Shown in pieces: positions 2,961 to 55,273 of a DNA stretch of 64,000 bases. Numbering within the stretch: the first letter of the stretch is position 1; every line of letters begins with the position of its first letter. Source of the DNA: Halobaculum sp. MBLA0147 (GTDB taxonomy: Archaea > Halobacteriota > Halobacteria > Halobacteriales > Haloferacaceae); the NCBI RefSeq assembly GCF_041361345.1, contig NZ_JBGKAD010000005.1, positions 62,001-126,000 on the forward strand, in the 5' to 3' direction. A program made the translations under genes and the position numbers. The notes under the pieces are model-generated. The model was not told the DNA's origin, did not search any database, and worked only from the letters and a program-made list of their open reading frames with translations.

Positions 2961-3005
2961 GCGGAGTCCACCCTAACACACCTTCATAGAAGGACACACG
3001 ATACG

Positions 3006-5048
3006 ATGTCAGACAACAAGACGATGGAACGGTCGCAGTCGAAGTTCATTTACGACTACCTGCCGTGGAACACGTTCAACCACGCGCACAACAACCTCAG
3101 CGGGCGCGTCGCCGGGCTGAAGAACGAACTCGACGAGTACGGGCAGGACGTAGAACTCGACCTGCCCAAGAGCTACGTCATCAGCCGCGTCCACCGCCAC
3201 ATCTCGAAGTGGCCCAACGCTGACGCCATCCGCGACGACCTCACGTACGCCAACACCGAACTCCTCAAGCCGGGCTGGGCGAACTACCTCATCTACCCAC
3301 TCACCTTCGAGTGCGACGCCTGTAAGTCCGTCACGAAGTTCGACCGCGACCAGATGGATGAGATGGCCGAGGAGGGCAACGACGCCCGCGACCTCGCCGT
3401 CTGCCAGAACCCCAATTGTAATCAGCGGCTCACCGACCGTGACCAGTTGCCGTTCGTCGCCATCTGCGAATGCGGCACCATCGACGAGCTCAATGTTCCC
3501 GAGTGTTGCGGCGCAGGGATGCGATTCCGTCGTCCAACCACCCAGATGGCCTCGTGGTACTGGGAGTGTGCCGTGGACCCCTCCCACGACACCACGTCGT
3601 TCTACGGCACGCCTGTCTACTGTCCGAACGGAGACTGCGACAACGAGGACATGGAAGTCCTGAACCACACCTCCAGTAGCGCGTTCTACCCGCAGGTCAA
3701 GAACCTAATCAACGTCCAGCCACAGCTTGACGATCTTCACTCCAGCGAGCACTATCAGGCGCGCATCGTCTCGGACTACCTGCTGGGCGGTGAGGAAACC
3801 GAACCCTCAGACCGCGAGAAGCGCCAGATAGCTGCCGACATCCTCGGAGGCACCGATGCACTCGTCTACGGCGACGAAGAGGAGATCGAGGAGGCACTCG
3901 ACGAGGCGCGCGAGCGACTGATGGTTGACGTGCAGGAACACCGCAACCAGACCGAGGAGTGGCTCGGTGGGTGCTTCGAGGACGACGCCCGGACGACGCT
4001 CGCGGAGGAACTGTACGAACACCTCAGCGTCGTCTCCCCCGAGTACGCCCCCGCCAGCGGTATCGAGTCCGTCTCCTATCAGGAGATGGTAGACAACAAC
4101 GCCGAAGACACCCACCTCTCGCTCCCGAAAGTGCGCAAGTACAACCAATTGCGCGAGGACCTCAACTTCGCGGAGGTCCGCCTCATCAAGGACTTCCCCA
4201 TCACCGCCGCCACGTACGGCTACACGCGCACCGCCCCGAACCCGCCGGGCGAAGACCGCAACCCCGCTGAAGCCAACACCGAGGAGGAGGGGCGGCACGG
4301 CGACGACGCCAGCACGGAAGCGTCCGGCGGCAAAGGCGAAGGCGACGGGCGGCCCGTCGAACTGAATCTGTTCCGAACGGGCGACCACTCCGCCCCACAG
4401 ATATTCGCTCAGACGAACGACGCCGAGGCGGTTCTCGTCCAGTTCGACCACGAAACGGTCGTCGAGTGGCTTGACGAGAACGACCTGTTCGACGCCCCCA
4501 GCGGCCTGCCCGAGACGGTCTCGAAGCCGGACACGGACGACCCAGAGGAGATGCGCCGCTGGTTCGTCGCCAACATCGACCCGCCGGGTCGCTACGACGA
4601 ACTCCCCGACAACGCCCCGCCGGGAACCGCCGAGTGCGTCACCCGACACTGTTACACGCTTCTGAACACGACCGCGCACCTGTTCATCAACGGGATGGGG
4701 GCACTCGCGGGCCACCAGCGCGAGTCGCTCGTCGAACACCTGATGCCCCGGACGATGAGCTTCGTCGTCTACAAGCGTCCAGATACAGATTTCGCGCTCG
4801 GGTCGCTGTGGACGCTGTTTGAGGAGCAGTTCGACGACTTCGCTGCCCACCTCGACGAACTGTACGACTGCTCGTACGACCCGGTGTGTATACACGACGA
4901 GAACGGTGCGTGCGAGGACTGCCTGTACCTCGCCGCCATCTCCACCGAGAACGCCAACCACAATCTCGGACGCGGGACGTTCTACGGCGGCAACTTCGAC
5001 GGGCGCGACCTCACCGGCTACCGGCACGTCGTCCTCGACGACGACTGA
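3006..5048 (+). CDS. drmB: DISARM DUF1998 protein DrmB
   Basis: 680-residue DUF1998 protein, the partner of DrmA; in DISARM the DrmA-DrmB complex binds and inspects invading DNA. Zinc-type cysteine pairs are seen near residue 103 (CDAC), around 140-165 (CECG, CCGAG) and near 205 (CPNGDC). The C-terminal DUF1998 signature sits near 622-665 (CSYDPVC, CEDC, then an asparagine-rich turn and RGTFYGG). A disordered Glu/Gly-rich linker lies near 425-445. The gene begins 45 bases after drmA stops and is probably co-transcribed with it. No enzymatic site is visible, as expected for the family. Confidence 0.88.
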   Translation: MSDNKTMERSQSKFIYDYLPWNTFNHAHNNLSGRVAGLKNELDEYGQDVELDLPKSYVISRVHRHISKWPNADAIRDDLTYANTELLKPGWANYLIYPLTFECDACKSVTKFDRDQMDEMAEEGNDARDLAVCQNPNCNQRLTDRDQLPFVAICECGTIDELNVPECCGAGMRFRRPTTQMASWYWECAVDPSHDTTSFYGTPVYCPNGDCDNEDMEVLNHTSSSAFYPQVKNLINVQPQLDDLHSSEHYQARIVSDYLLGGEETEPSDREKRQIAADILGGTDALVYGDEEEIEEALDEARERLMVDVQEHRNQTEEWLGGCFEDDARTTLAEELYEHLSVVSPEYAPASGIESVSYQEMVDNNAEDTHLSLPKVRKYNQLREDLNFAEVRLIKDFPITAATYGYTRTAPNPPGEDRNPAEANTEEEGRHGDDASTEASGGKGEGDGRPVELNLFRTGDHSAPQIFAQTNDAEAVLVQFDHETVVEWLDENDLFDAPSGLPETVSKPDTDDPEEMRRWFVANIDPPGRYDELPDNAPPGTAECVTRHCYTLLNTTAHLFINGMGALAGHQRESLVEHLMPRTMSFVVYKRPDTDFALGSLWTLFEEQFDDFAAHLDELYDCSYDPVCIHDENGACEDCLYLAAISTENANHNLGRGTFYGGNFDGRDLTGYRHVVLDDD

Positions 5049-5157
5049 CACGACCCGCTCAGGGAGTTCTTCAAACCCAAGGAGGCTTGCACGGTCCAAA
5101 GATGTTCAATATCGTCTTGCTTGGGGGATTCGTCGTTGAAACCCGCTACTATTAACG

Positions 5158-6015
5158 ATGCCATCAAACCCAGCGAACCTCGACCAAGACGCACTACTCG
5201 AAACGGCCCGCATCCTCTCACAGGCTGTCCCAGCCGACGCGCTCGACGGCGTGCGTGCCAGTCTTGAATATCTCCACCACGCTGACTGCGAGGTGACTCC
5301 TGAGGCACTTCGAGATATCGCCCCGTGCGACCTCTCGACAACGAACGCTGAAAATATCGTATACCAACTCGCCGTTGAGGGTGTGTTCGACGACGGGCAC
5401 CTCAACGTCGAGGCGCTTCGGGAGGCATTCGTCGGTGCCCGACTGATCGCCGGGCAGGTCGACCCGCCCAAGAACACTGTCGTTGCTACCATCCCTTATG
5501 ATGATCGGGCACTTGATCCCGGGATGTTCGAGCCACTTCATGCCAATCTGCTCGAACTCATCCGTTCGGCTGAGGATGACCTCGTTTTGATGAGCCCGTT
5601 TCTCAGCGAGCAAGCTTACGAGCGACTCCGACCGGCACTTATTACAGCAGCAGACAACGGCGCGGATATCACACTCATCACGCGGTACCTTACTTATGGT
5701 GATAAGGATTTTAACCGTGAATTCGCCCGGGGAGTGGCTACCAACCAGCGGCTCACATCAGCAACGGCCTACTACGAGTATATTGACGACGAGACATGGA
5801 CGACGTTTCACGCGAAGATGGTCATCGCAGACGGGGAACTGGCCTATCTGGGCACAGCCAACCTGACACACAAAGGGCTCGGGGGCAATCTAGAACTGGG
5901 TGTCATTTTCCGAGACGATACAGCGTCACGACTCACTACGCTTGTCGAAAATCTCCGGCAGTCGGAGTTCTTTTATCAAGTCTCCGTCTCGGGAAAATCG
6001 TTCCACCGGTGCTAA
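5158..6015 (+). CDS. drmC: DISARM phospholipase D-like protein DrmC
   Basis: 285-residue protein of the PLD superfamily, the third core DISARM gene. The C-terminal half carries an HxK-x4-D motif near residue 217 (HAKMVIAD) followed by a GTANLT stretch, as in PLD nucleases. The N-terminal half has the matching fold (LMSPFLS) but no second clear HKD, so activity would need a dimer or the protein may be structural. It starts 109 bases after drmB, a wider gap than between drmA and drmB. Published work found drmC dispensable for protection in some DISARM systems. Confidence 0.85.
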   Translation: MPSNPANLDQDALLETARILSQAVPADALDGVRASLEYLHHADCEVTPEALRDIAPCDLSTTNAENIVYQLAVEGVFDDGHLNVEALREAFVGARLIAGQVDPPKNTVVATIPYDDRALDPGMFEPLHANLLELIRSAEDDLVLMSPFLSEQAYERLRPALITAADNGADITLITRYLTYGDKDFNREFARGVATNQRLTSATAYYEYIDDETWTTFHAKMVIADGELAYLGTANLTHKGLGGNLELGVIFRDDTASRLTTLVENLRQSEFFYQVSVSGKSFHRC

Positions 6016-7788: not shown

Positions 7789-10623
7789 CTACCCAACCAA
7801 GTGCTGTATCTCCTGAGTAGGAAGCGGGTCAACCTGCTGCCGATCGCCAGTCTCCGTATAGAAGATACTAGCAGTGACCTCACGATCAGGGTAGACCTCT
7901 TGCGCAACATGATAGTACACGCTCAGCTGCTTTCGATACTCACTTTCAGCGTGCCGACCATGGTCAGTCTTGTAGTCTACAATCTCAACCTGATCAGGCG
8001 TCACGTGCATGAGGTCGACAATTCCTGAGACCGTCACACGATCATCACCAACGGACACTGGAAGATAGACTTCCTCCTCGACGAGCAGCTCACCCTCCAA
8101 CTGGTCGAGGAATCGCTTGACGTGTTCTTCATCTGCATTCCGGGGCGTACCTGCATCGCCGAGGGCGTACGCCTCGGCGAAGTCATGCACTTGTGAGCCG
8201 AACTCAGTTCCTCTCCCGCCGTCGACATCCTCAAACACGTCGTCATTCATCAGCGTGTGCGGTGTCTGCCCCTGTGGGCCCTCCGGAACAGGAATATCCA
8301 CTTGGAGCGCAGTCTGTTCCGACGGACCCAGCGTCTGCTCGTCGACATCGAGGGAAATCTCCGCAACCTCCACCGGCAGTTCTTCGATGAAACTGTTCGG
8401 GTCCTTACCAGCGCTAAACACGACGTGACTCTCAGCACGGGTGATAGCAACGTAGAGCAGCCGGCGTTCCTCGTCGTAGTTGCGAGGCAGACACTTCCGG
8501 AGGACATCAGCCTGCCAGTTGTCGTAGACGTGTGGACGGCCGTGCGCCTCCTCAGCGTACACTTTGCGCTGTCGCAATCCGATCGGGTCGTCATACGCAA
8601 TACCAGCGCTAGTCCCACCACTCGGCGGGAACCGCCCGCTGTTCATGTTCGCCAGAATGACGATCGGGTACTCAAGACCCTTCGTGGCGTGGATCGTCTG
8701 CACGGTCACTGAGTCCGTCCCGGCACTCGCGTGCACCTCGTGGGTACTCCCAGCCGTAATCGCACGCTCGATGAACTGGATGAGATCGCCGCGCGTCTGC
8801 GTGGTAGCCTCGTGAACCGACTCGAGCGTGTGGAGGACCATGTCGGCCGTTGGACCATCATACCCGTAGCGCGCAAACACGCGTCGTGCAACACCGCCGA
8901 GTGTCTCCAGCGACCGGACATCGTTGCGGAACGCGACCATGTTCTCAGGGTACGTCTCTGCGTCGAGAATCGCATCAATCTCATCGAGTGTGTAGCCCGC
9001 CTGCTCGAGCACCACCGCCCAGCCACGGTCGGTGTCGTCTTCAAGAATCCGGAGCCAAGCCAGCAAGAGCTTCGCTTGGTCTGTCCGGAAGAGCTCGATG
9101 CCACCCTCGTACGCCATGGGCAGTCCGTACTCCTCTGCGGTCTCCAACAGCTCTCGACCAAAGTCACGCGTCCGCGTCAACACGGCGATGTCACCAGGCC
9201 CCGGCGTCCGGAGTTCTCCATCCTCATTCTCTACCCGGTAGTCGTCGTTGTCGACGATTTCCTGGATCTTCGCCAGCACTGCCTCCTGTTCCTCGTCACT
9301 CCGGATCGCCTCGATGGTGGTGTTCTCGTGGTCGGTGTTTGACTGCAGTGAGACAAGCCGATCATCGATCGCAGCAACGTCAACATCGTCGTGCTTGGCT
9401 GCAGGAACACACAGAGCGTGTTCAGAGAACTCAAGAATCTCCTGTGTCGAGCGGTAGTTCTCCTTGAGTTTGACATCGGTCACAGGACGAGTCGGGAACG
9501 AGACACGCTCGTGGTCACTGTTCAGTTGCGCAGCGAACTGCGACAGCCGGTCCTCAAACTCGAGGATGTTGTCGACATCCGCATACTGGAAGCTGTAGAT
9601 ACTCTGCTTCCAGTCCCCGACAACGCAGATGTTGTTCGTGCCTGCGAGGAGCAGTGCGAGTTTGAACTGGATCTCACTCGAGTCCTGGAACTCGTCGATC
9701 ATCAGGTACTCAAATGCCAGCTCATCGCGTACCGAGTGGTCTTCACAGAGGAGAACAAACGCGAACAGCTGGAGCATCCCGAAGTTCAGGTAGTTGCGTC
9801 GCAGGGCAAACTGCAGGTACTCGTAGTAGACGTCGTGGACGAACTGTTTGAGCCCCTCTCGGTCTTCTTCGAAAGCCCGGACAGCCGTCTTGTCGGGGAC
9901 TTGCTTCCCGCTGCCGCGAATCGCTGCCTTCTCGGGTGCATCGGGCAGATAGGTCTTGTTGCGGCCGTAACGGCCAAGTTTCGACCGAAGGCGTGACTGC
10001 TTGCTGCCACCGTTCCGTGGGCGATTCATCGCGTCGAACTGCCGTTTGAACGCGGTGAAGTCTCCATCGAGGTGCTGCTCTCCATCACGGTACCAGCCGT
10101 CCGCGTCAGGGAACACGCCTTTCGCCGCCAACTGGTTGAGTAATCCGAGAAGCTCCGCAGGCTCATCGAGTGCGCGGAAGACGTCGTCATACTCGGGATG
10201 TGCGTCACTGAACCGGTCGATAAACTCGCCGAACAACGCTTGCTCGACGAGTTCGTCCTCGATGATCCGTGTCGATCCGGTGATCCGGTCGTCGATCCCG
10301 AGATAGGTTGGCGCATCGTGGCCGTGTTCGTCGAGCAGGTCGTAACACAGTGAGTGGAAGGTCTGAATCGGTGCATCCGCAAGCTCCCGCATCCCGTAGT
10401 GACAGTGTCCGACGATCCGCTCTTTCATTTCGCTGGCCGCGTTGTCGGTGAACGTCACCAGCAGGACGTCCGAAGGATCAACATCCGTTTGCGAGACGAT
10501 GGTAGCGTACCGACGTGTGACGGTGAAGGTCTTGCCCGTGCCAGCGCCGGCGTCGACGCGATACAATCCATCGATGTTCTCGATCAGATCTCCTTGCTGG
10601 TCGTTCGGCGTAGGCTCACTCAT
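7789..10623 (-). CDS. AddA-like UvrD helicase with PD-(D/E)XK nuclease
   Basis: 944-residue superfamily 1A helicase fused to a C-terminal nuclease, the AddA/RecB architecture for double-strand end processing. Walker A (GAGTGKT) is near residue 29, motif II (IDEFQDSSE) near 310, motif III (GDWKQSIYSF) near 336, motif V (TIHATKGLEYP) near 648 and motif VI (LLYVAITRAE) near 722. The nuclease strand reads GIVDLMHV then EIVDYKTD near 884-902, followed by QLSVYY (QxxxY). The start ATG overlaps the stop of the upstream gene (ATGA), so both are translated from one message. The nearest alternative is a defence-type UvrD helicase. Haloarchaea normally use Mre11-Rad50/HerA-NurA, so this is probably an acquired function. 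Confidence 0.85.
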   Translation of the reverse strand: MSEPTPNDQQGDLIENIDGLYRVDAGAGTGKTFTVTRRYATIVSQTDVDPSDVLLVTFTDNAASEMKERIVGHCHYGMRELADAPIQTFHSLCYDLLDEHGHDAPTYLGIDDRITGSTRIIEDELVEQALFGEFIDRFSDAHPEYDDVFRALDEPAELLGLLNQLAAKGVFPDADGWYRDGEQHLDGDFTAFKRQFDAMNRPRNGGSKQSRLRSKLGRYGRNKTYLPDAPEKAAIRGSGKQVPDKTAVRAFEEDREGLKQFVHDVYYEYLQFALRRNYLNFGMLQLFAFVLLCEDHSVRDELAFEYLMIDEFQDSSEIQFKLALLLAGTNNICVVGDWKQSIYSFQYADVDNILEFEDRLSQFAAQLNSDHERVSFPTRPVTDVKLKENYRSTQEILEFSEHALCVPAAKHDDVDVAAIDDRLVSLQSNTDHENTTIEAIRSDEEQEAVLAKIQEIVDNDDYRVENEDGELRTPGPGDIAVLTRTRDFGRELLETAEEYGLPMAYEGGIELFRTDQAKLLLAWLRILEDDTDRGWAVVLEQAGYTLDEIDAILDAETYPENMVAFRNDVRSLETLGGVARRVFARYGYDGPTADMVLHTLESVHEATTQTRGDLIQFIERAITAGSTHEVHASAGTDSVTVQTIHATKGLEYPIVILANMNSGRFPPSGGTSAGIAYDDPIGLRQRKVYAEEAHGRPHVYDNWQADVLRKCLPRNYDEERRLLYVAITRAESHVVFSAGKDPNSFIEELPVEVAEISLDVDEQTLGPSEQTALQVDIPVPEGPQGQTPHTLMNDDVFEDVDGGRGTEFGSQVHDFAEAYALGDAGTPRNADEEHVKRFLDQLEGELLVEEEVYLPVSVGDDRVTVSGIVDLMHVTPDQVEIVDYKTDHGRHAESEYRKQLSVYYHVAQEVYPDREVTASIFYTETGDRQQVDPLPTQEIQHLVG

Positions 10624-13205
10624 CGGTCACCCTCCAAGAGCAGATCGCGATTGTCCACGTAGCGATAGTTTGGCTCCCCGCCCAATCCCTCAACGGGGAA
10701 CCGTTCCTCGCCGGCGCGCCGGCGGTTCAGCTCTTCCAGTCGTTCGTCGACAAACGTCTCGAAGGCGTCGAGATCGCCTTCGAAGAAGGCTTGCCCCCGA
10801 GTGCGTGTCAGCTGCCGCATCACCTGTTCACAGCCTGTCTCGACGTATTTGTAGTCTCCAACGTGGTCTTTCATCTGGCTCGTCAGTTCTGCGCCGAATG
10901 GTGAGTTGATGAGTTCCTCACTGTCAGTCGTTGCCGGGAGCGAGGCTCCATCGAAGACTGCGGCGTAGTCCGCGTACGCCACCTGCGAGAGTGTCTTTTG
11001 ACACTTGTTCGCTCCATCTGCAACGACCTCCTCGAAGAACGCCTCTGAGGCGGCGTACTCCTTGAACGAGACCGGGTGATACGAGATCGTTGTCAGCGTG
11101 TCCTCGAGATCGGCATCCCCGGTGACGATATCATCGAGCGTCTCGAGGAAGTGGAAGAACGTGAACTCTAGGTGCTGATCAGGCTGCTGTGACCGCCAGT
11201 GGGCGAGATACAACAGCGCTTGGAAGTCAGGCGTATCATTGGGCGGGTCGAGTGCGGAGTTCGTGACAACCTCTGAGGCGCTCTTCCGTGAGCTACTCTT
11301 GTGATCGATCAACTGGGTCGGCGAGTGGACCAGATCGATCTTCCCTTTCAGACCCAGGGTCTCATTCTCGAACCACCGTTCGGTAACAGGCGAGTCAACG
11401 GGCTTGTCGAAACGCTCGGCAAAGGCATTGCTGCCCCACCCGCTTGTCGGAGTGAGAAACTCTCCGTCGACTGGCGTGTTCTCGTCGAAGAAGGCCACGA
11501 TGGTCTCTAACCCAGCGCGATACTTTGTTCGCCGCGTCGCCTCATCCACAGATCGGATGAATGGCCGTGTCTCGGCGAGCATATACGACACGACATCGTC
11601 GATGATCTCGGCGTCGACGAACTCCGGGTGGGTGACGTAGAACTCCGCGAAGTCGTGGAAGAGGTTCCCTTCCTTCAAGTAGTCCTTGTCAGGCCCTTCG
11701 ACGAGCCTGTCAAAGAAGTAGTCGCGCGGCGAGTTCACGTACGTACTCAGAGTCGATTGACTGATCGTCGAGACCTCGTTCGTTGTCACGTCGACCGATT
11801 CCTTTTCGAACCCACGACCGGCGTGCCCATCCCACCGCGTGTGTGAGGTTGCATCGAGGTCGCTGAACCGCTCGAACTCCTCATCGAGCAACTCTTCGAA
11901 ATAGAGACACGGGGTGACTGATGATCCGCCTCGTGCATCTTGAACGAGGTAGTACTGCGTCGCCCCACTCTGGAGTAGGAGTTGGAACTGGGTGATGTTG
12001 CGTGTGTACTGCGCGTCCTGATCGACCCACGGCCGTCGTGGCGGCGAATGCGTCCAGTCCTCATCCAGCCCCAAGTAGAAGACGACTGGCCGGTCGACGT
12101 AGGCTGCCGATTTCGCATCGGCGAGCAGCACGCCTTCGTTGTCACGATCGACAGGCACCTCGTAGCTTTGGAGATAGAAGACAAGTTGCTCCACAGTACG
12201 CTCGGTCGCATTCGCGTCGGCGAGACCGAGTGCGTCGAGTTCATCACGGAATGCGTCAAGACGGCGATCGGTCTTGTCCTCGAATCGAGTGAGCGCATCG
12301 CTAAACGTCCGCTCCTCGATGTGGGTGCAGAAGTCGACAACCCAATCCAGCTCAGCAGCCTCGACCTCGTACAGGCGCTTCTCGTCATGCTCGACAGCAA
12401 GCGAGATATCGAGCCGTGCAAGCAGTGGACGAATGTCGCCTACGCGAGTGTCACTGCCGCCGTGTGCGGCTCGAAGCAACTGTACGAACGTCCGGTGATC
12501 AGGATGGTCTGCAAACCCAGGTCCACCGTAGAACGGGATGTTGTTCGCCTCAAATACAGCCTCGATGAGTGCAGAGAATTCGCTTTCCCGATTGAGCACG
12601 ACGGCGATGTCGTTGGCATTCTCGTCGGTGACGGCGTCCACGACTGTGTCGACAATTGCTGTCGAGGAGTCAAAGATGTGGAACGGTGGGTACTCGAACA
12701 CCTGTTGATCGAAGGTGTCGTAGGCATCGTACTCGGCTGGGAGGATGGAACGTTCAAGTTGCGTCAGCTGGTCCTCACCAACGACGGCAACGTTCTGGCT
12801 GGCGTCGATCCGATACTCAGTGAGCCGCTGTGAGGTCGTCCCGAGATCAGCAATGTGTTCGACCGCTTGGCGCGTGGCGGCGTCAACGTACGCATCGTAG
12901 TCTAGGATCGCCTCACGACTACCCTGGTGCTCCCAGCACTGGAGTATATTCCCGATCGCGTAGGCACCGCGCTTCCAGTCCAAGTCGGTCTGCTCGATCA
13001 GTTCTAAGAACGCGATCCGGTCCTCGGCCTCCTCGCGCCGCCCCGCCGCAAGACGGCGTGGTGTGATCGCAAACGTGCCGAGATGGGGTCTCTTGATCCG
13101 CCGATTCAACGCACTCGCCAGCGGCGCGTCTGGCACCACGACGAGATCGTAGTCTGCGACTTCCTCGTAGAGATCATCAATCGGCTTGGCCCGGGCAAAT
13201 GACAC
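10620..13205 (-). CDS. AddB-like protein with PD-(D/E)XK nuclease
   Basis: 861 residues from the GTG at 13205. A longer frame to 13334 exists, but its extra 43 residues are Cys/Arg/Trp-rich and unlike the rest. A TATA box centred 27 bases upstream fixes the shorter, leaderless start. The N-terminal half has a degenerate helicase fold without Walker A (LVVVPDAPLASALNRR, then DIAVVLNRESEF), as in AddB. The C-terminal nuclease shows GKIDLVHS, LIDHKSS and FQALLYLAHW (QxxxY). AddB normally holds an Fe-S cluster with four cysteines around the nuclease. Here the first position reads NSPRDYFF and the C-terminus has one Cys only, so the cluster is missing. It is the first gene of the operon with the addA-like gene. 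Confidence 0.8.
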   Translation of the reverse strand: MSFARAKPIDDLYEEVADYDLVVVPDAPLASALNRRIKRPHLGTFAITPRRLAAGRREEAEDRIAFLELIEQTDLDWKRGAYAIGNILQCWEHQGSREAILDYDAYVDAATRQAVEHIADLGTTSQRLTEYRIDASQNVAVVGEDQLTQLERSILPAEYDAYDTFDQQVFEYPPFHIFDSSTAIVDTVVDAVTDENANDIAVVLNRESEFSALIEAVFEANNIPFYGGPGFADHPDHRTFVQLLRAAHGGSDTRVGDIRPLLARLDISLAVEHDEKRLYEVEAAELDWVVDFCTHIEERTFSDALTRFEDKTDRRLDAFRDELDALGLADANATERTVEQLVFYLQSYEVPVDRDNEGVLLADAKSAAYVDRPVVFYLGLDEDWTHSPPRRPWVDQDAQYTRNITQFQLLLQSGATQYYLVQDARGGSSVTPCLYFEELLDEEFERFSDLDATSHTRWDGHAGRGFEKESVDVTTNEVSTISQSTLSTYVNSPRDYFFDRLVEGPDKDYLKEGNLFHDFAEFYVTHPEFVDAEIIDDVVSYMLAETRPFIRSVDEATRRTKYRAGLETIVAFFDENTPVDGEFLTPTSGWGSNAFAERFDKPVDSPVTERWFENETLGLKGKIDLVHSPTQLIDHKSSSRKSASEVVTNSALDPPNDTPDFQALLYLAHWRSQQPDQHLEFTFFHFLETLDDIVTGDADLEDTLTTISYHPVSFKEYAASEAFFEEVVADGANKCQKTLSQVAYADYAAVFDGASLPATTDSEELINSPFGAELTSQMKDHVGDYKYVETGCEQVMRQLTRTRGQAFFEGDLDAFETFVDERLEELNRRRAGEERFPVEGLGGEPNYRYVDNRDLLLEGDR

Positions 13206-13228
13206 GCCGGCAAGAGACGGGCGTCGGG

Positions 13229-13235
13229 TATAAAA
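13229..13235 (-). promoter_or_regulatory. TATA box of addB-addA-like operon
   Basis: On the minus strand TTTTATA, centred 27 bases before the GTG at 13205. It fixes the start of the AddB-like gene and implies leaderless transcription of the operon. The rest of the gap 13236-13730 holds no gene that I can support. Confidence 0.65.
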
Positions 13236-13730
13236 TTCAGCACGGTGAAAACTCGAGTGGCAGCAAGGTCTACAACCGAGTGGTCCCGCTCTTCTACCCC
13301 ATTTGTGAATAGCGAAAACAGGTGGGACCCACACCCCTTTTTCGATATGAAATCGGGGGGTGCGTGGGATCTTACCTCAGTCTACTGCTTTTTGAGATGT
13401 GACGCAAAGCTGGACACTTCCATTTTCGCTCTTTCCGACGAGAAGGAGAGACCAGACATCTTTACACTCCACAAACATCATTTCAAATGAATGTGAGTTA
13501 CTGTCTGTATCTTCCAATCGGCACTCGCTGGACAGACAACTGATCACGACGTGTACCGGATGAGGTACTAGTTACATATGGCTGACACTCCGGGTACACT
13601 CGAAAGCCGGGGTACGACTTCTGAAAGATTACGCTGCACGGCTGGGCGTTACACTTGAAATGTGGTGTTTACCCTGATACTCTGGCGTTAGAATAGAGTT
13701 AACAAGAAACCCATACCGCCCTCATATCTC

Positions 13731-18775: not shown

Positions 18776-19795
18776 ATGATCACAGACGCGAGCGTCCTCC
18801 AGAAGGGGTTTGTCCCCGACGACTCTATTCACCGGAACCGCGAGGTGACTGCCCTCTCGCGCTCGCTGGACCCGCTCACACGCGGCCACATCCCGGACCC
18901 AGTCCTCCTGACCGGTCCATCCGGTGCAGGGAAGACGACCTTCACGCGCTTCGTCGTCAACCAGCTCGAAGCAAGCGCCCCCGAGACACAGGCCGTCCAC
19001 GTGAACTGCTGGGAGAGTCACACCCGGAGCGGCGCGCTGTTCGACGCCCTCGAGTCACTCCAGGTGGCGACAGCCCTCCACCGCAACTCGACGAGTCACG
19101 ATGAACTGCTCAACCACCTCGCCGCCATCGACAAGCCGGTAGTGCTGATCCTCGACGAGGTGGATCAGTTGGACGACACCAGTCTGATCTACGACTGCTA
19201 CGCCACGGCAGGCGTGACCACCATCCTGATCACCAACGACAGAGGTGAACTCCTGCGCGAGATGGACGACCGCGTTCGTTCACGCCTCCAGACGGCCGAT
19301 CACATCCACTTCGACGCCTACACCTCCCAGCAACTCGCGGACATCCTCCAAGCGCGTGTCGACCACGGCCTCGTCGCGGACGCGATCTCAGAGCCCCAAC
19401 TCCTCGAGATCGGCGACGCCGCGGCCGGCGACGCCCGCGTGGCACTTTCGATCCTCCGCACAGCCGCCCAAACGGCCGCGTACAACGACCGAACGACGAT
19501 CACCACCAGCGACATCACCGACGCCATCCCGCGCGGGAAACAGAGCGTCCGCGTTCGGACACTCGACTCCCTCCGAGAACCACAACAGGAGCTGTTTCGC
19601 CTGCTTCAAGCAACGGGCGAAACTGCACCTGGCGAGTTGTACGAGGAGTTCGCTGCCACCCGGTCGGATCCACCCACGAAGCGGACTGTCCGGTCCTGGC
19701 TGCAGAAACTCGCTCACTACAACCTCGTCGAATACTCTGGGGAGGGCCCAACGCGAACGTACACCCCGGTGCGAGACGCGCCACAGGCTGTCTGA
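18776..19795 (+). CDS. Orc1/Cdc6-like AAA+ ATPase
   Basis: 339 residues with all main AAA+ marks: Walker A GPSGAGKTTF near residue 46, Walker B VVLILDEVDQL near 121, sensor 1 ILITND near 150, and sensor 2 DARVALSILR near 217. A C-terminal winged helix follows at about 260-335 (EPQQELFRLLQATGE, then VRSWLQKLAHYNLVEY). It is shorter than chromosomal Orc1/Cdc6 proteins. The likely start is the ATG at 18776, with a TTTTAG box 26 bases upstream. It is followed, after 474 bases, by a three-gene helicase-nuclease set on the same strand. It may be a plasmid-type initiator or an ATPase working with those genes. Confidence 0.8.
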   Translation: MITDASVLQKGFVPDDSIHRNREVTALSRSLDPLTRGHIPDPVLLTGPSGAGKTTFTRFVVNQLEASAPETQAVHVNCWESHTRSGALFDALESLQVATALHRNSTSHDELLNHLAAIDKPVVLILDEVDQLDDTSLIYDCYATAGVTTILITNDRGELLREMDDRVRSRLQTADHIHFDAYTSQQLADILQARVDHGLVADAISEPQLLEIGDAAAGDARVALSILRTAAQTAAYNDRTTITTSDITDAIPRGKQSVRVRTLDSLREPQQELFRLLQATGETAPGELYEEFAATRSDPPTKRTVRSWLQKLAHYNLVEYSGEGPTRTYTPVRDAPQAV

Positions 19796-20269
19796 GATGC
19801 GTCTATTCATCCGCGTCCGCGCCAGAAGACGCCATCGTGATCAGGTCGCGACACCTGCTTGCGACCCCGGTCTCGGTCATGGGGCGCCCTCACGACGCCG
19901 TGTTGTAAGGCGCCTGCTCTGGACGATGTCCGACCACTGTCGCCGTGACTTCGACAGGCAGGTGTCTCCGGCTCCGGCGTGTGAGCGCATCCGGTTGCAG
20001 CATACTCCCGGCTCACCCTGGCGGCTTCGAGGATCCCGTCCAGACGAGACTCCCATCGCCGCCCGCGGTATCGCAACCGATATTAGTACGACAGCGTCTC
20101 CGTGGTCAGACGGAGCCGCCCCATCTGACCCGTCATGTCACATCAGTCGGTCTCTCGTCCTGCGATTTGACCGGCATATACGTCCGCGAAATAGTGCCTG
20201 TGAGCCGACCAGTCAGCCAGCGGATGACACTCCAGCGCACAGCAGTCCACCAGCCACCCACGACACATA
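19796..20269. other. Gene-free gap between orc-like gene and split addB
   Basis: 474 bases with no supportable gene. Frames running through it are extensions of shadow frames. A small hairpin (CTCCG/CGGAG, about 20096-20113) is present. No TATA box at the right distance from the ATG at 20270 was found, so the promoter of the next operon is unclear. An origin next to the orc-like gene would be expected here or upstream, but I see no repeated origin-recognition box. Confidence 0.4.
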
Positions 20270-21112
20270 ATGCAACAACTGAATCCCCGCCAACGAGAGC
20301 ACGCCCAGCCTGCGTCCGTGCCGTTCACCGTCCATGTCGACACTGTGCCGCCGCTGCACGCCTGGGCACAACGGACACCGGACACACAGCACCTCGTCGT
20401 GACACCTGTACGAGCACACAGGCGCAATCTCCGGAACCAGCTACGCGAGCACGACTGCCCGCAAACGAATTTCGAGTTCGCCCGGATACTCGAGGTCGCA
20501 CGCCGCGTCAGTGGACGCGACGGACCGACAGAGACACTCGATACCGTTGACCGATTATACCACCTACGCTCTCTTCTAGCAGAGGCGCGCCAAGCCGACG
20601 CCGCGTGGTTTAGGGACCTCGCGGTAGCGACGGGAACCAGGCTCTCGGAGCGACCTGAGGACGCGGAGGCGATCCGCTCAGAGATCGAGCTGATCACCGG
20701 GTTCCACCCAGACCGACTCGCGGCACTCCGTTCGGCAGCAGACGGCATTGGGACGCCAGCCGACCAAGACAGCCACGCGCGCATCACGGCGGCCGTCGCC
20801 ATGCAGCGGGCACTCACACAACGCGTCGACCCAGCGCCGACACCGGACACAGTGATCCGTGCCGCCACGCGGACACTCGCCGCTGAGGGTGCAGCCGCGT
20901 GGCAGGCTGCCTACGAGACCGTCGATCGCGTCACGGTCGCTGGCATGGCGTCACTGCCGGCAGCGTTGGTCGATTTCCTCCGTGTCGTGGCGACCGAGGC
21001 AGCTGTCGATATCCACCTCTACCTTCGTGCGGCGACGGGTCCGACGGCCCGCGACCGACTGCCGGCGTTGTGTGCGGTCGATACCCCCGGCAACGAGGTG
21101 ATCGAGTCGTGA
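20270..21112 (+). CDS. AddB-like N-terminal half (split protein)
   Basis: 280 residues resembling the first helicase-fold half of AddB: LVVTPVRAHRRNLRNQL near residue 44, at the position of the lost Walker A strand, and VTVAGMASLPAALVDFL near 218, at the position of motif II-III. There is no Walker A. The stop TGA overlaps the GTG of the next gene (GTGA at 21109-21112), so the two halves are translated together and probably form one functional unit. The assignment is by pattern and context; sequence similarity to known AddB is weak. Confidence 0.6.
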   Translation: MQQLNPRQREHAQPASVPFTVHVDTVPPLHAWAQRTPDTQHLVVTPVRAHRRNLRNQLREHDCPQTNFEFARILEVARRVSGRDGPTETLDTVDRLYHLRSLLAEARQADAAWFRDLAVATGTRLSERPEDAEAIRSEIELITGFHPDRLAALRSAADGIGTPADQDSHARITAAVAMQRALTQRVDPAPTPDTVIRAATRTLAAEGAAAWQAAYETVDRVTVAGMASLPAALVDFLRVVATEAAVDIHLYLRAATGPTARDRLPALCAVDTPGNEVIES

Positions 21113-22350
21113 CCTGCGATACCGACACGACACAGGTCGAGATCGTCGCAGAGAGCCGTCCGGCGGAGGCACGACGTATCCTGGCAGTGGTCGCCGAGCA
21201 TGCCGACCGCGGCGGGTCACCCAGCGATATCGCCGTCGTCGTCCCGGATCCAGACGCGTACGAACCACCGCTTTCGAACGCGGCGGCGCGACACGGCCTT
21301 GCGACGGCGACATGGACACAACTCCCACTCACCGACACGCTGCCGTATCGGCTCGTCGCCGCCTGCTGTCGCGTGCTCGACGCCACCTCCTGCTCGTGTG
21401 AGACGTTCCTCAAGCCGTTAGTGTACCATTGGACGCCGCCGTCACTGGCGTCCAGTGGCGCGTCGCGAGACGCTGCCACACCGCGTGACCACGACGAGTC
21501 GTCGTCATCCTCAGTCGGGACCCCGAGCGGGGCTGTGGGCGACATGCCGGCAGGCGACACAGCGGTGTCAGCACTTCGCGCGATGGTCCGAGACGCGTTG
21601 CAAGGCGACGAGACATCAACCCGAGACCCTGTGGAGTGGTGTCGCTGGATCACTACCCGCGAGGTGCCGTCGGTGGTAGAGGCGTACTGTGAGTGGGTCA
21701 CCGCGCACCACCACGAGGGCCGCCCGCAGCCAGACGCCGTCGACACAGCGCTGTCACCCGTGTTGGACGCGTACGAAGACGCGGTCCTACCGCTACGGTA
21801 TCAGCGTGATGGCCCGACGTTGAGCCAGACGGCACAGACAGCACGGGGCGTTGTCCGGACCCAAGACCTCGTTGAGGAAGTCGTCACGACGTACGCAGAC
21901 CGGCTCGAGGCCGGCGAGCCGCCGTCGTGGGCTCTTGTTGGTGACCTCGCCGAAACGATCGCGGAGCTTCGTGCCGGCCGCCGCGAGCACGCGAACGCCC
22001 ACGCGCTCGACGTGATCGACGCGAACGACACCTGGGGGCTGTCACGAGACGTGGTGATCGCGGTCGGCCTCAGACACGGCGGCTGGATCGAATCACGCCA
22101 GGGGCGGCTGCCACCCGCACTCCAAGCACGACTGGTGGACCGTGCCGACATCCCGGTCGGGATCCGGGCAGCGTGGTCGGAAGCACAGGTGCGAGACCAC
22201 TTCCAAGACACCGTTTCGGCGGCGTGTGACACGCTCGTCTGTACGCGGCCAGAACGCGACCCCACCGGAACGCCGGTGCCGCCATCGCCGTTGCTCGCAG
22301 CCCTCGACACTGCGACTGTGACGCCCACGGAGGTGTTCGCCGATGACTGA
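21109..22350 (+). CDS. AddB-like second half without nuclease domain
   Basis: 413 residues from the GTG that overlaps the previous stop. The start EIVAESRPAEARRILAVV followed by DIAVVVPDPDAYEPPL matches the domain-2 beginning of AddB/AddA helicases. Near residue 305, DVVIAVGLRHGGWIE resembles the motif V region. A Ser/Asp-rich insert lies near 125-150. There is no PD-(D/E)XK nuclease at the C-terminus, unlike normal AddB, which carries one. It overlaps the next gene by 8 bases. A longer frame back to 20899 exists but lies inside the preceding gene and is rejected. Confidence 0.6.
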   Translation: MTCDTDTTQVEIVAESRPAEARRILAVVAEHADRGGSPSDIAVVVPDPDAYEPPLSNAAARHGLATATWTQLPLTDTLPYRLVAACCRVLDATSCSCETFLKPLVYHWTPPSLASSGASRDAATPRDHDESSSSSVGTPSGAVGDMPAGDTAVSALRAMVRDALQGDETSTRDPVEWCRWITTREVPSVVEAYCEWVTAHHHEGRPQPDAVDTALSPVLDAYEDAVLPLRYQRDGPTLSQTAQTARGVVRTQDLVEEVVTTYADRLEAGEPPSWALVGDLAETIAELRAGRREHANAHALDVIDANDTWGLSRDVVIAVGLRHGGWIESRQGRLPPALQARLVDRADIPVGIRAAWSEAQVRDHFQDTVSAACDTLVCTRPERDPTGTPVPPSPLLAALDTATVTPTEVFADD

Positions 22351-25300
22351 CGCCGAGCCCGCCGCGGGGGCGACGCGCCCACCACTGAACGACGCACAAC
22401 GCGAGATCGTCGACGCCGCCCTCGCGGCTGACGCAGGCCTCTTCGTCCAGGCGTCTGTCCCGGGCTCGGGGAAGACATACGCGAGCAGTCGCTTGTGTGC
22501 TGAGTTTCTGCTTGAGCGTGCCGCCGCCGGCATCGATCGCCCGGCCGCGGGACTGGCGGTCATGGCGTTCAATCGCGACGCTGCGGCGAACCTCCAGCCG
22601 GAAGTGACAGACTGGCTCCGGTATCTCGTCGCCACCGACGCGACGCCGGCCGCTCGCAGTCTCGAGGTAGCCGACGTGTCACGCCTCGCCAGTGCGTTTC
22701 GTCGTTCGGAGACGGTCGGCACGATCGACGCCCTCCTAGCCCACGTGTTCCGCGACATCGCACTTGAACTGGGGTTCGATGACCCGACTGTCGACGCCGG
22801 CCACGCTGTCGACCGCCTCCACCGCGACGCCTTCGAAGTGGTCTGTGGGGACCCCGCGCTCACCGACGAGATTGAGCGTCTCGGCGACGCGTACCCACCG
22901 GAGGACGACGACAGAGACGAGCTGGACAGGGTTGCGGACCTTCTCGAAACGATCACGAAGACGGCGCGTGACCACGGGTGGACACCGTCGGAAGTGAGAG
23001 AACGACTCCACGAGAGTCGACGGGCGTTCTATCCGGACGGTCCGCCGTCATCGCTCGCGGACGTGATCGACGACGCACGCCGATTCGCCGGCGACGGCGC
23101 CGGCGTGTCGCCGACCGAGACGTGGAGCGAGGACGAGATCGTCGCCGCAGACCGCGCACTCCACGACGCCTGGGCGGCACGGATCGACGACCTCGTCGCA
23201 GTCTACCGGTCGTACGTCGCCGCGTACGATCGGGCCTGTCGAGAGCGGGATGTCGTGAGTCACGTCGACTGCGCCCACTGGATCAGGCAGTACTTCGGCG
23301 ACTCCACGTGTCCACACCGGTGGGCCGACGATGCGGTGTCTGAATCGGTCGTCGATCGACGCCGCACCCGCCTCCGTGATCGGTGGCAGAACCGGGTCGA
23401 TCTGCTCGTCGTCGACGAGGCACAGGATATCTCGACCGGTCAACACGACGCACTGGCACAGCTCGTCACTGACGACACGCGGGTAGTGTTGTACGGTGAT
23501 CCGTTCCAGAGCATCTACACCTGGCGGAACGCCCGGCCGTCGTCGTTCGCCGGCGCGATCACCGACGGCACGTACTTCGACCGCGAGTGGGACACGCACG
23601 TCGTTAGGAAAGCCCGAACAACCTACCGGCAACGCCCGGCGCTCACAGACACCGTCGACAGTGTGTTTGGTCCAGCACTGGACGACCCCGGACGTGGTGA
23701 CGCCCCTAGTCTCGATGTCGACTACGATCCGCTGTCGCCCGACCGTGACGCCACAGACGACCCCCGCCTACACCTCGCTACCTACCGACCGCGCTACGAC
23801 AACGACGACGATCACCAGGCGGAAGTGCTCGCACAGTACCTCCGTGGCGCACTCGAAGAAGGCGTGTTCGACGACGGTGACAGTGACGCCGTCACCGACG
23901 ACGACGCCGTCGCCAGTGAACACGGCGATTCCACTGGCACACGCGACGATCGACAGCCGCCGATCCGGGTGTTGTTCCGAAGTGAGTCGTCGATGGGGGC
24001 TGTCCGTGACGCCCTCACGGACGTCGGACTCACCGTCGGGACGGCAGTGCCGGTGTTTGAGCAACCGTTGACGCAGACCATAGTGTCGTTACTCGAGTGG
24101 CTCGTCGACCCGCTCGCTGTCGGGGCGACTGACGCGATACGTGACGCCGCCGCGACGGCTCACAGCGATACGCTGACTGCCGTCGCGGACTACGTTGACG
24201 ACGCCGGGTGGGGCACAGCTGACCGTGCCGGTGACACGGCGCTCGACGGCGACGCCGCGCGACTCTTCACCGAACTGCGGACGCTCGCGACGGACACCGC
24301 CGAGCGTGCGCGGTGTGCGCCGTCAGAACTCGTCGAGCGGTTGTGTCGGGTACTCGCCGTTGACGATGACCCGTTCGGGATTCAGCCGGACAGCACCGTC
24401 CGTCACCGTCGGCGCATTCGTGACGAACTCCGGGCTGCCGCCGCCGACGCCGACGGCCCCGAGGTCCCGCCGTCGTCGGTCGTCAGTGTCCTAACTGCAC
24501 TCTGTGACGACCCCGACGACGGCCCGTCTCTGGCGGTCGATCCAGACGAGTACGATGTCGTCTTCGAGACGATCCACTCGTTCAAAGGCGCGGAGACGCA
24601 GGTCGTCGCACTCGGGGATCCGGCGTCCGACCCGACTGGGTGGTCGTACACGGACTCGGTCGTCGCTCGTGGGACGACGCTTGCCGTCTGTCCCCCCGCG
24701 ACGACCGACGCGTCTGCATCGGCACACGTCCAGAGGGTTCCGGTGAACGGCTACGGCGGTGGCTTGTTCGACTACGAGTCCGAGCGGTCCTCGAGGAAGG
24801 ACTCCGGACTGCGGTGGGTGACGAACCGGTCGCGGACGGACTCGAAGACGACGTTTGTCGGGCCGGAGCGCTTCGCCAAGTGCGCTGCCGAAGAACGCGC
24901 GGAGCACTGGCGTCTCGGGTACGTCGCCGCGACACGCCCCCGAGACCATCTCGTCGTCCCGGTTCCGCGACAGTCCGATCCGGACCCGAGCGACTCCTGG
25001 GCGGCCGCGTTCGCGCATGCGTTCTCGCCCAAGGAGGCCGACGTACAGTCCGAAGTGACGAGGCGACCGGCCGCCGCAGATCGACTGATAAGTGTCTCCA
25101 TCGACGATGTCGCGGCGCGTGACCCCCTCGAGTCACTCTCGGGGCCGTGGACTGGGCGGTCTCCATCGTCGCTACAGTTGCCGACGTACGATTCGACAGC
25201 CCAAGACTGGCTCCCGCGATTCGTCGACGCGAGCACGTTCTTCCCGTTGTCCGAGGACCACGACCAGTACGTCGTCGATCACCTCCTCGGGCGGCAACTC

Positions 25301-25939
25301 GACACGGATAGTGGGACGACGGACACGGACGCCCCACTGGGCGTCGTCGGTCCTAGCGTCCTCGGACAGATCGCCCACGACACGTTCGGCAGTCTAATTC
25401 GATCGGATCCGGACTGTGATCGGGTTCGTGCTGGTCACGCCGACATCACGAATCACGTCGACTGGGCGCTCGATCGAGCGCGGCTCAAGCACGGGCTCGA
25501 CGACACGCAACGAAACCGGATTAGAGACTACCTGTTTGAGGCCGCGCTCCCGGCGTTCGTCGCGACCGACGCCTTCGAGCGACTGTGTCGCGCCGGCACG
25601 GTATTCGTCGAGGAACCATTGGAAACGCGGATCAAAGTCGACGACCTCCGGGTGGAGTTCCGCGGGCAGGCAGACTTCGTCGCCCGCGACGGCGACGAGT
25701 GGCTGATCGAGGATATCAAACTCACCTTCGCAGAGGGGAGTGCCGAGACCGACGACCGCTACAGACACCAGTTGGCCGCCTACCGGTGGATACTGGAACG
25801 ACAGGGTGTTGATCCGTCGGCTCGGGTCGTCGCTCGGATCACGAACATCGGCGAACGCAACAACGAATCAGAGCTCTCGCCCGAGATAGATGTTGACGAG
25901 CGGATCCGCCAACGGCTCCGTCGGCTCGGTCCCGAGTGA
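22343..25939 (+). CDS. UvrD/AddA-type helicase with C-terminal nuclease, 1198 residues
   Basis: Superfamily 1A helicase. Walker A (VPGSGKT) is near residue 38, motif II (LLVVDEAQDIS) near 355, motif III (GDPFQSIYTWRNA) near 384, motif V (ETIHSFKGAE) near 737 and motif VI (GYVAATRPRDH) near 857. The C-terminal PD-(D/E)XK nuclease has VEFRGQADFV, LIEDIKLT and QLAAYRW near 1102-1150. It is about 250 residues longer than the AddA-like gene at 7789, with acidic inserts. It overlaps the split AddB gene by 8 bases, so the three genes form one operon. A double-strand end-processing or defence helicase is the likely role. Confidence 0.82.
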   Translation: MTDAEPAAGATRPPLNDAQREIVDAALAADAGLFVQASVPGSGKTYASSRLCAEFLLERAAAGIDRPAAGLAVMAFNRDAAANLQPEVTDWLRYLVATDATPAARSLEVADVSRLASAFRRSETVGTIDALLAHVFRDIALELGFDDPTVDAGHAVDRLHRDAFEVVCGDPALTDEIERLGDAYPPEDDDRDELDRVADLLETITKTARDHGWTPSEVRERLHESRRAFYPDGPPSSLADVIDDARRFAGDGAGVSPTETWSEDEIVAADRALHDAWAARIDDLVAVYRSYVAAYDRACRERDVVSHVDCAHWIRQYFGDSTCPHRWADDAVSESVVDRRRTRLRDRWQNRVDLLVVDEAQDISTGQHDALAQLVTDDTRVVLYGDPFQSIYTWRNARPSSFAGAITDGTYFDREWDTHVVRKARTTYRQRPALTDTVDSVFGPALDDPGRGDAPSLDVDYDPLSPDRDATDDPRLHLATYRPRYDNDDDHQAEVLAQYLRGALEEGVFDDGDSDAVTDDDAVASEHGDSTGTRDDRQPPIRVLFRSESSMGAVRDALTDVGLTVGTAVPVFEQPLTQTIVSLLEWLVDPLAVGATDAIRDAAATAHSDTLTAVADYVDDAGWGTADRAGDTALDGDAARLFTELRTLATDTAERARCAPSELVERLCRVLAVDDDPFGIQPDSTVRHRRRIRDELRAAAADADGPEVPPSSVVSVLTALCDDPDDGPSLAVDPDEYDVVFETIHSFKGAETQVVALGDPASDPTGWSYTDSVVARGTTLAVCPPATTDASASAHVQRVPVNGYGGGLFDYESERSSRKDSGLRWVTNRSRTDSKTTFVGPERFAKCAAEERAEHWRLGYVAATRPRDHLVVPVPRQSDPDPSDSWAAAFAHAFSPKEADVQSEVTRRPAAADRLISVSIDDVAARDPLESLSGPWTGRSPSSLQLPTYDSTAQDWLPRFVDASTFFPLSEDHDQYVVDHLLGRQLDTDSGTTDTDAPLGVVGPSVLGQIAHDTFGSLIRSDPDCDRVRAGHADITNHVDWALDRARLKHGLDDTQRNRIRDYLFEAALPAFVATDAFERLCRAGTVFVEEPLETRIKVDDLRVEFRGQADFVARDGDEWLIEDIKLTFAEGSAETDDRYRHQLAAYRWILERQGVDPSARVVARITNIGERNNESELSPEIDVDERIRQRLRRLGPE

Positions 25940-53890: not shown

Positions 53891-55273
53891 TCAGAATGCG
53901 GCCACGATGTCTTCGATGGAGAACAGGCGGAGATCATCGCGTTCTGCTGCGGCCTCGATCAGACTCCGGCTGAAGCCGCTTCGAGTGAACAGACAGAACT
54001 CATGATCGACATCCGCGCCGCCCTGTGGTGTCCAGCGGATGTCTTCGACGTCGGTTTCGAGGTCGCTCAGCACGTCGTATCCCATCGGCTGGCTCGTGAA
54101 TTTGCACTCTCCGGCGACCACCGTATCGCCGGCCGTCAAGCCGATCACGTCGACCTCCTGCTCCTGATACCACCAGCGGCCGATTCGGTCGAACGTGTAT
54201 TCCTCGTAGAGGTGGGGTACGGCTGTCTGACACAGTTCCTCAAACTTCGAGCTGACGGCGTCCGCGAGGTGTGGTTCGATCAAGTCCTCGTAAGCGTCAG
54301 TGCCTGCTCGGTCGTACTTCTCGCCCTGGCCGTAGACAAACCGGAACCAGAACCGGAACAGTGCGTCCTGTAACACGTACTGCCCGCGGCGAGATTGTGC
54401 GGGATTCTGGGTCACCGGAACCTCTCGACGGACGATCTCTAGGTCTCGGAGGTTCTTCAGGTAGTGGCTGATCTGATCCGAGTCGATACCGGCCGCCTGT
54501 GCGATCTCGTTGGAGGTCTTGTTTCCGGCAGCGATCGTCTTCAGGATCGAAAAGTACCGATTCGGCTCCTCCAGTTCGGTACGCAAGACGTACTCGGGTT
54601 CGTCGTGGAGGAAGCCACGCTTCGAGAGAACGGCCTCCCGGATGTTCCTCTGCAGCGGGCGGTCGTCGTCAACGGCTTGGAGGTAATGCGGGGTCCCGCC
54701 GAAAACACTCCACGCCAGTACCATCTCCTCGGGGTCGTAGTCAGGGAAGAACTCCGCCGCGGCGTCGAACGGCAGTTCCGTCAGTTGCAAGCGCATATCG
54801 AATCGGCCATGAAGTGGACTTCCGCCGCTCATCACTTTCTCTTTCATCATACTGATCGACGATCCGACCAGTACCAACGTGGTGCTCGTGCCGTCGACGT
54901 CGTGATCCCACAGTCGTTGGACGACCGACGGAAGGCTCTCGTCGGCCTCAATCAGGAACGGGAACTCGTCGAGGACGATCAACGCGTCTTGTTCGAAGAG
55001 ATAACCGAGCACATCTTCCCACTCGCGCCGGATGCGTTCGATGCCCGAGAAGGTCCGAGCGGCCTCGGCGACGAAGTCGTCGAGTTGCACCTGCTTGGTC
55101 GTCTCGGTGGCCTGGTAGTAGACGACATCGTCTCGGTCACGGATCGAGTGTTCGACTAACTCTGTCTTCCCGACCCGGCGACGGCCCCAGACGGTAATCA
55201 GCGAGGGTTCGTCAGTATCGTACCGCTCTTGGAGGGCCGCAATATCGGTATTCCGGTCGACGAACGCGTCCAT
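53891..55273 (-). CDS. Archaeal AAA ATPase with DUF234 nuclease-like domain
   Basis: 460 residues. The P-loop WGRRRVGKTELVEH is near residue 29 and Walker B ALIVLDEFPFL near 96, followed by the sensor LVLVGSSISMM. A winged helix (AGNKTSNEIAQAAGIDSDQISHYL split by two linkers) covers about 250-310. The C-terminal DUF234 part reads QEVDVIGL and VVAGECKF, which gives the D-ExK pattern of PD-(D/E)XK nucleases. Such genes are common in archaeal accessory DNA, and their role is uncertain (DNA binding, transposon- or TA-like). It has a striking palindrome in its promoter region. Confidence 0.82.
   Translation of the reverse strand: MDAFVDRNTDIAALQERYDTDEPSLITVWGRRRVGKTELVEHSIRDRDDVVYYQATETTKQVQLDDFVAEAARTFSGIERIRREWEDVLGYLFEQDALIVLDEFPFLIEADESLPSVVQRLWDHDVDGTSTTLVLVGSSISMMKEKVMSGGSPLHGRFDMRLQLTELPFDAAAEFFPDYDPEEMVLAWSVFGGTPHYLQAVDDDRPLQRNIREAVLSKRGFLHDEPEYVLRTELEEPNRYFSILKTIAAGNKTSNEIAQAAGIDSDQISHYLKNLRDLEIVRREVPVTQNPAQSRRGQYVLQDALFRFWFRFVYGQGEKYDRAGTDAYEDLIEPHLADAVSSKFEELCQTAVPHLYEEYTFDRIGRWWYQEQEVDVIGLTAGDTVVAGECKFTSQPMGYDVLSDLETDVEDIRWTPQGGADVDHEFCLFTRSGFSRSLIEAAAERDDLRLFSIEDIVAAF

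Follow-up and report, generated by a model that had tools for sequence, protein, structure and literature searches.

The window, a stretch of 64,000 nucleotides from Halobaculum sp. MBLA0147, contains three consecutive genes, termed B1, B2 and A, which constitute a conserved three-gene module of haloarchaea. This module very probably encodes a DNA-end helicase-nuclease of the AddAB/RecBC kind, combining one motor, one nuclease and an inactive B arm in an accessory and mobile gene set. To our knowledge, it would have the fewest active sites among enzymes of this kind. An earlier reading of the window, based on the letters alone (the sequence-only reading), had stated that no named system of this composition was known, which holds for the three-gene core, whereas the AddAB/RecBC kind itself is already known.

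All three genes are located on the forward strand. B1 (20270–21112, 280 aa) corresponds to the N-terminal half of an AddB-like protein, comprising a RecA-like domain 1A with a 1B insertion, and B2 (21109–22350, 413 aa) to the C-terminal half with domains 2A and 2B. A (22343–25939, 1198 aa) is an AddA-like SF1A helicase with one C-terminal PD-(D/E)XK nuclease. B1 and B2 overlap by the four bases GTGA at 21109–21112, and B2 and A by eight bases at 22343–22350. Further upstream on the same strand, an Orc1/Cdc6-like ATPase gene (18776–19795, 339 aa) was judged to lie outside the module. The four reading frames and both overlaps were already described in the sequence-only reading and were confirmed at their positions. 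While A matches the Pfam families UvrD_N (E 3e-16) and PDDEXK_1 (E 6e-9), no family match of B1 or B2 was obtained in Pfam, NCBIfam or PADLOC, and the plasmid records examined annotate the B genes as 'hypothetical protein'.

A comparison of the A profile with the PDB identified AddA (3u44_A, E 4e-29), and AdnB could also be aligned. The window A displays the helicase motifs GSGK44, D358-E-A-Q-D, GDPFQSIYTWR, TIHSFKG and VAxTR as well as the nuclease residues His1012, Asp1111, Asp1124-x-Lys1126 and Gln1143-x3-Tyr1147. The motifs G-x-GK and DEAQD are present in all 38 of 38 A homologues, with stricter regular expressions being satisfied by fewer. The profile match and the motifs thus bear out the proposal that A resembles AddA with one nuclease. 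In B, by contrast, a Walker A motif of the form [G/A]x4GK[S/T] is absent from all 40 homologues and no nuclease family was detected with Pfam. Since complete motor and nuclease motifs are found in A and neither in B, the module comprises one motor and one nuclease.

Evidence for the nature of B was obtained from fold and profile comparisons. The AlphaFold model of a naturally fused B (locus L046, 36 rows) reached a pLDDT of 89.6 and a pTM of 0.83. In a Foldseek search of the PDB, AddB chains took the first five places, with E values of 1e-17 to 2e-16 and TM scores of 0.64–0.68 by query; 3u4q_B came first (E 1e-17), and UvrD, RecC and AdnA/AdnB followed. The model of the window B2 (pLDDT 80.9) matched UvrD chains best, with AddB just behind. 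At the profile level, the alignment of the fused short B with a long haloarchaeal AddB-like family extends over 639 columns, from column 34 to column 728 of 1173 (E 3.6e-40). Aligned separately with hhalign, B1 occupies positions 35–298 (E 1e-11) and B2 positions 336–744 of 1173 (E 3e-28). The profile of the long family matches AddB in the PDB (E 9e-11) and, when run over all genomes, recovers fused short B proteins over their full length and the split ones mostly via B2, in each case stopping near position 700. Because the profile of short B itself yielded no direct AddB match in the PDB, short B is linked to AddB by way of the long haloarchaeal family and by its fold. Short B lacks the remaining third of the long family, where AddB carries its nuclease and Fe-S cysteines, and B2 ends at the position where the nuclease part of AddB would begin. 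Fold search, profile comparisons and natural fusions together support the assignment of B1 and B2 as the two halves of a nuclease-less AddB-like protein, as had been supposed for the window from motif positions.

B1 and B2 form a single open reading frame of 670–746 aa in 11 of 40 loci and are separate in the other 29, often with a 4-base overlap. In the L046 model, residues 1–265 (B1) appear as one RecA-like unit, which carries a helical insertion, and residues 266–678 (B2) as a second unit, these boundaries being our reading of the secondary-structure string of the model. Read in this way, the model has the split point separating the 1A/1B half of the helicase fold from the 2A/2B half. Loci with split and with fused B group strongly on a tree built from A, with 3 label changes and none of 200 shuffles giving a number as low, and the split is therefore old and has been kept. 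A single origin of the split is not clear-cut, as the tree requires 2–3 label changes. The clade of the window copy sits on a long branch and, since A is also located apart from B in its Halobaculum relatives, the window copy has drifted. In Halobaculum marinum (G222), A is found 7 kb downstream of B on the same plasmid, and in H. litoreum (G386) about 15 kb from B.

To what extent the module is conserved can be seen from searches of 392 haloarchaeal species genomes. The B2 protein matched in 66 of these, 63 of them strongly, and the A protein in 71, 63 of them above the threshold for a strong match of 200 bits. The genomes with strong B2 matches and those with strong A matches are identical (63 of 392, about one in six species), as judged by handle from the two tables compared by eye. 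Haloferax and Halobacterium species are among the carriers, and the window genome possesses only one B2 match. In nearly all of the 40 loci fetched, B1, B2 and A are adjacent and in the same order. The exceptions are the two Halobaculum loci named above and L070, where the contig ends and the A match of that genome lies at the other end of the same contig. Protein identities of B1, B2 and A range from 29 to 53% across the 40 loci, and the 4-base overlap between B1 and B2 is recurrent. Given that proteins and order are conserved and the overlap recurs, the arrangement reflects more than chance. The sequence-only reading had proposed a system of four genes, to be abandoned if these were rarely found together. 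This is indeed the case for the set of four including the Orc1/Cdc6-like gene, but not for the B1-B2-A core. No third gene, next to B and A, was general to the module loci in the neighbourhoods examined.

When the B2 profile was run over GTDB genome contigs, it picked up 42 loci, all of which belong to haloarchaea. Relatives of B1-B2-A were found neither in phage records nor in viral contigs, and a viral origin of the module was rejected. Several module copies reside on plasmids. A stretch of 7.27 kb is 98.4% identical between the loci of Halobacterium salinarum (L059) and Halohasta litorea (L061); as the two species belong to different families, this demonstrates transfer of the module between families. 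The module is an accessory gene set passed among haloarchaeal lineages on megaplasmids and chromosomes.

Of the systems already described, AddAB of bacteria (Bacillus subtilis; PDB 3u44/3u4q) is similar in that A carries the AddA helicase and nuclease motifs, B folds like the helicase-like part of AddB, and the genes are adjacent and co-occur. However, AddB has an ATP site of its own, the second in the complex, as well as a nuclease domain (PMC4824097), whereas short B has neither and is usually split; likewise, the C-terminal nuclease domain of AddB with its Fe-S cysteines was not encountered in short B. With RecBC the module shares the combination of one motor and nuclease subunit (RecB) with one inactive helicase-like partner (RecC). 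RecC, however, comprises 1122 residues and retains an inactivated nuclease-like domain (PMC1185551), while in short B, with about 680–690 residues, this domain is absent. In contrast to RecBCD, the module operon contains no RecD, and no third recurrent helicase gene was present in the operons examined. AdnAB of mycobacteria is likewise a two-subunit SF1A helicase-nuclease, and A aligns with AdnB. AdnAB carries a nuclease in each subunit, both of which are mutated in the PDB constructs, whereas in the module a nuclease is found in A only. Gabija resembles the module insofar as GajB is the UvrD-type helicase of a defence pair, and the GajB models of PADLOC match A (E 2.5e-18). Unlike in Gabija, neither the module nor its recurrent neighbours include an OLD/TOPRIM GajA gene, A carries its own nuclease, and B is AddB-like.

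A further comparison is offered by the long haloarchaeal AddB-like family itself (about 1130–1210 aa, in 11 of 392 genomes), which has the same fold over the region of B1 and B2 and is paired with an AddA-like gene. Unlike short B, it keeps the C-terminal part with a C-x2-C-x5-C cluster of Fe-S-type cysteines, though without a recognisable nuclease signature, and its sequences suggest a RecC-like nuclease inactivation in archaea. In the respective loci (L128–L133, L163, L164) a DYK-type nuclease signature is not recognisable, and some display an extra inserted cysteine cluster. A third class (L160, L161, L162) consists of canonical-looking haloarchaeal AddB proteins of 1061–1131 aa with an intact PDDEXK domain (E 1e-30) and a DYKTG motif, adjoined in L160 and L161 by a UvrD-type AddA-like gene. 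An extended series can thus be laid out from AddB with a nuclease, via RecC with a dead nuclease and long haloarchaeal B without a recognisable signature, to short B without the domain and finally split B. This series tests which parts an inactive subunit must keep.

In the proposed mechanism, B1 and B2 would each supply one half of an inactive helicase fold and together give rise to an AddB/RecC-like arm that binds the DNA end, separates the two strands and directs one of them towards the nuclease of A. A would move in 3'→5' direction using ATP and cut. The likely task of such a complex would be to process or destroy linear DNA ends, whether those of broken chromosomes or those of phage and plasmid DNA entering the cell. 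Of the two nucleases of B. subtilis AddAB, that of AddA cuts the 3' strand and that of AddB the 5' strand (PMC4824097). With this geometry kept, the module enzyme would spare the 5' strand and be ill-suited to recombination unless assisted by a 5'–3' exonuclease; if the nuclease of A is RecB-like, it may instead cut both strands.

Two readings of the cellular role have to be weighed. The module may chiefly act against phages and plasmids by degrading foreign linear DNA and belong to haloarchaeal defence islands, which is plausible but somewhat short of an even chance. It would agree with the DISARM core drmA/B/C at 39–6015 of the window, about 14 kb upstream of B1, with the proximity of other module copies to PDC-M33A/C (L115), a Dsr1-like STAND protein (L101) and a PLD/DrmD-like helicase (L085), with a tyrosine integrase directly downstream in one sub-clade, and with the patchy distribution and movement between families. 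Moreover, by the published AddAB strand assignment, loss of the AddB nuclease would disfavour a recombinogenic 3' tail (PMC4824097). However, in a comparison of 124 neighbouring with 124 random proteins from the same genomes, which left out 15 of 60 non-redundant loci where B was not located, a handful of strong PADLOC matches was obtained for each set without clear enrichment. Matches were slightly more numerous near the module but came from different systems, and the control set includes one CRISPR locus by chance. A general defence-island enrichment is consequently not supported by the few PADLOC matches in both sets. In addition, module copies of other genomes have no DISARM genes nearby, and the variable neighbourhoods include many loci among metabolic genes. 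An unnamed haloarchaeal class of mobile end helicase-nucleases, with B as two polypeptides without ATP site or nuclease and directed mainly against invaders, is a tentative extension of this reading.

Alternatively, the module could serve as an accessory end-resection enzyme for homologous recombination in place of HerA-NurA, a possibility to be taken seriously, although we would stop short of calling it probable. The AddAB/RecBC fold and motifs point in this direction, as does the reported absence of the HerA-NurA end-resection machine from haloarchaea (PMC12977600, PMC7776575), and B retains the helicase-like part, the region where the Chi site and the latch reside in AddB (PMC4824097). On the other hand, the module is limited to 63 of 392 species, and other helicase-nuclease pairs are common. 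One such pair is encoded on the reverse strand of the window, where a 944-aa protein with UvrD and PDDEXK domains (7789–10623) overlaps a 904-aa protein that likewise contains a PDDEXK domain (10620–13334). The 904-aa type occurs in 156 of 382 haloarchaeal genomes. As many haloarchaea carry other helicase-nuclease pairs, resection would be independent of the module. With a control lacking clear enrichment and DISARM not near the module elsewhere, defence and repair are nearly equal as readings. A Haloferax repair review does not mention AddAB, and a literature search with the terms tried found no description of AddB in haloarchaea. The module offers a concrete, genetically tractable end-resection candidate in organisms without HerA-NurA.

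Several features of the neighbourhoods were observed in passing. The DISARM core of the window is encoded on the forward strand (DrmA, E 4e-121; DrmB, 4e-36; DrmC, 3e-17), and upstream of this core an ORF (15745–16755 of L169) resembles a C5 DNA methylase, DrmMII-like by eye. The gene at 53891–55273 on the reverse strand of the window matches the PADLOC candidate defence family PDC-S27 (E 6e-44). In a sub-clade of modules (L114, 7115–9060; L045, L072, L091, L096, L115), a cassette encoding a small HTH protein, a DUF7344 protein, a 175-aa protein and an HNH endonuclease precedes B1, with one gene missing in some members; in L114 the HNH gene overlaps B1 by 4 bases. A tyrosine recombinase gene is located downstream of the module in L045, L101, L114 and L115.

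That the split B with its lost active sites marks a decaying pseudogene remnant is very unlikely. A congener (G124, locus L138) retains only a 107-residue piece of A with 72% identity, indicating loss of the module within the genus, and a few A copies elsewhere seem to contain a stop. However, the window genes are full-length with the A motifs kept, and deeply separated branches of the tree still share open B1 and B2 frames with the 4-base overlap.

Least probable of all is a plasmid replication or repair unit of four genes including the ATPase. In its favour, the Orc gene and B1 are adjacent on the same strand, and at one other locus (L057) the fused B is directly preceded by an Orc1-like gene. 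Yet, among the 40 module loci, just 2 have an Orc1 gene within about 10 kb, in each case a distant homologue of 25–26% identity. The Orc gene and B1 do not overlap but are separated by 474 bases, in which no convincing origin-like repeats were found, and an 83% identical paralogue on another contig (C2) adjoins no module. The proposed role of the ATPase as a system component was accordingly rejected, and the Orc1/Cdc6 gene is a chance neighbour of the module. Its assignment as Orc1/Cdc6-like proved correct, with matches to Cdc6_lid (E 9e-12) and, slightly below the family cut-off, to TIGR02928 (E 2.5e-51). The stretch shared with the paralogue is limited to the Orc gene itself plus some 65 bases ahead of it.
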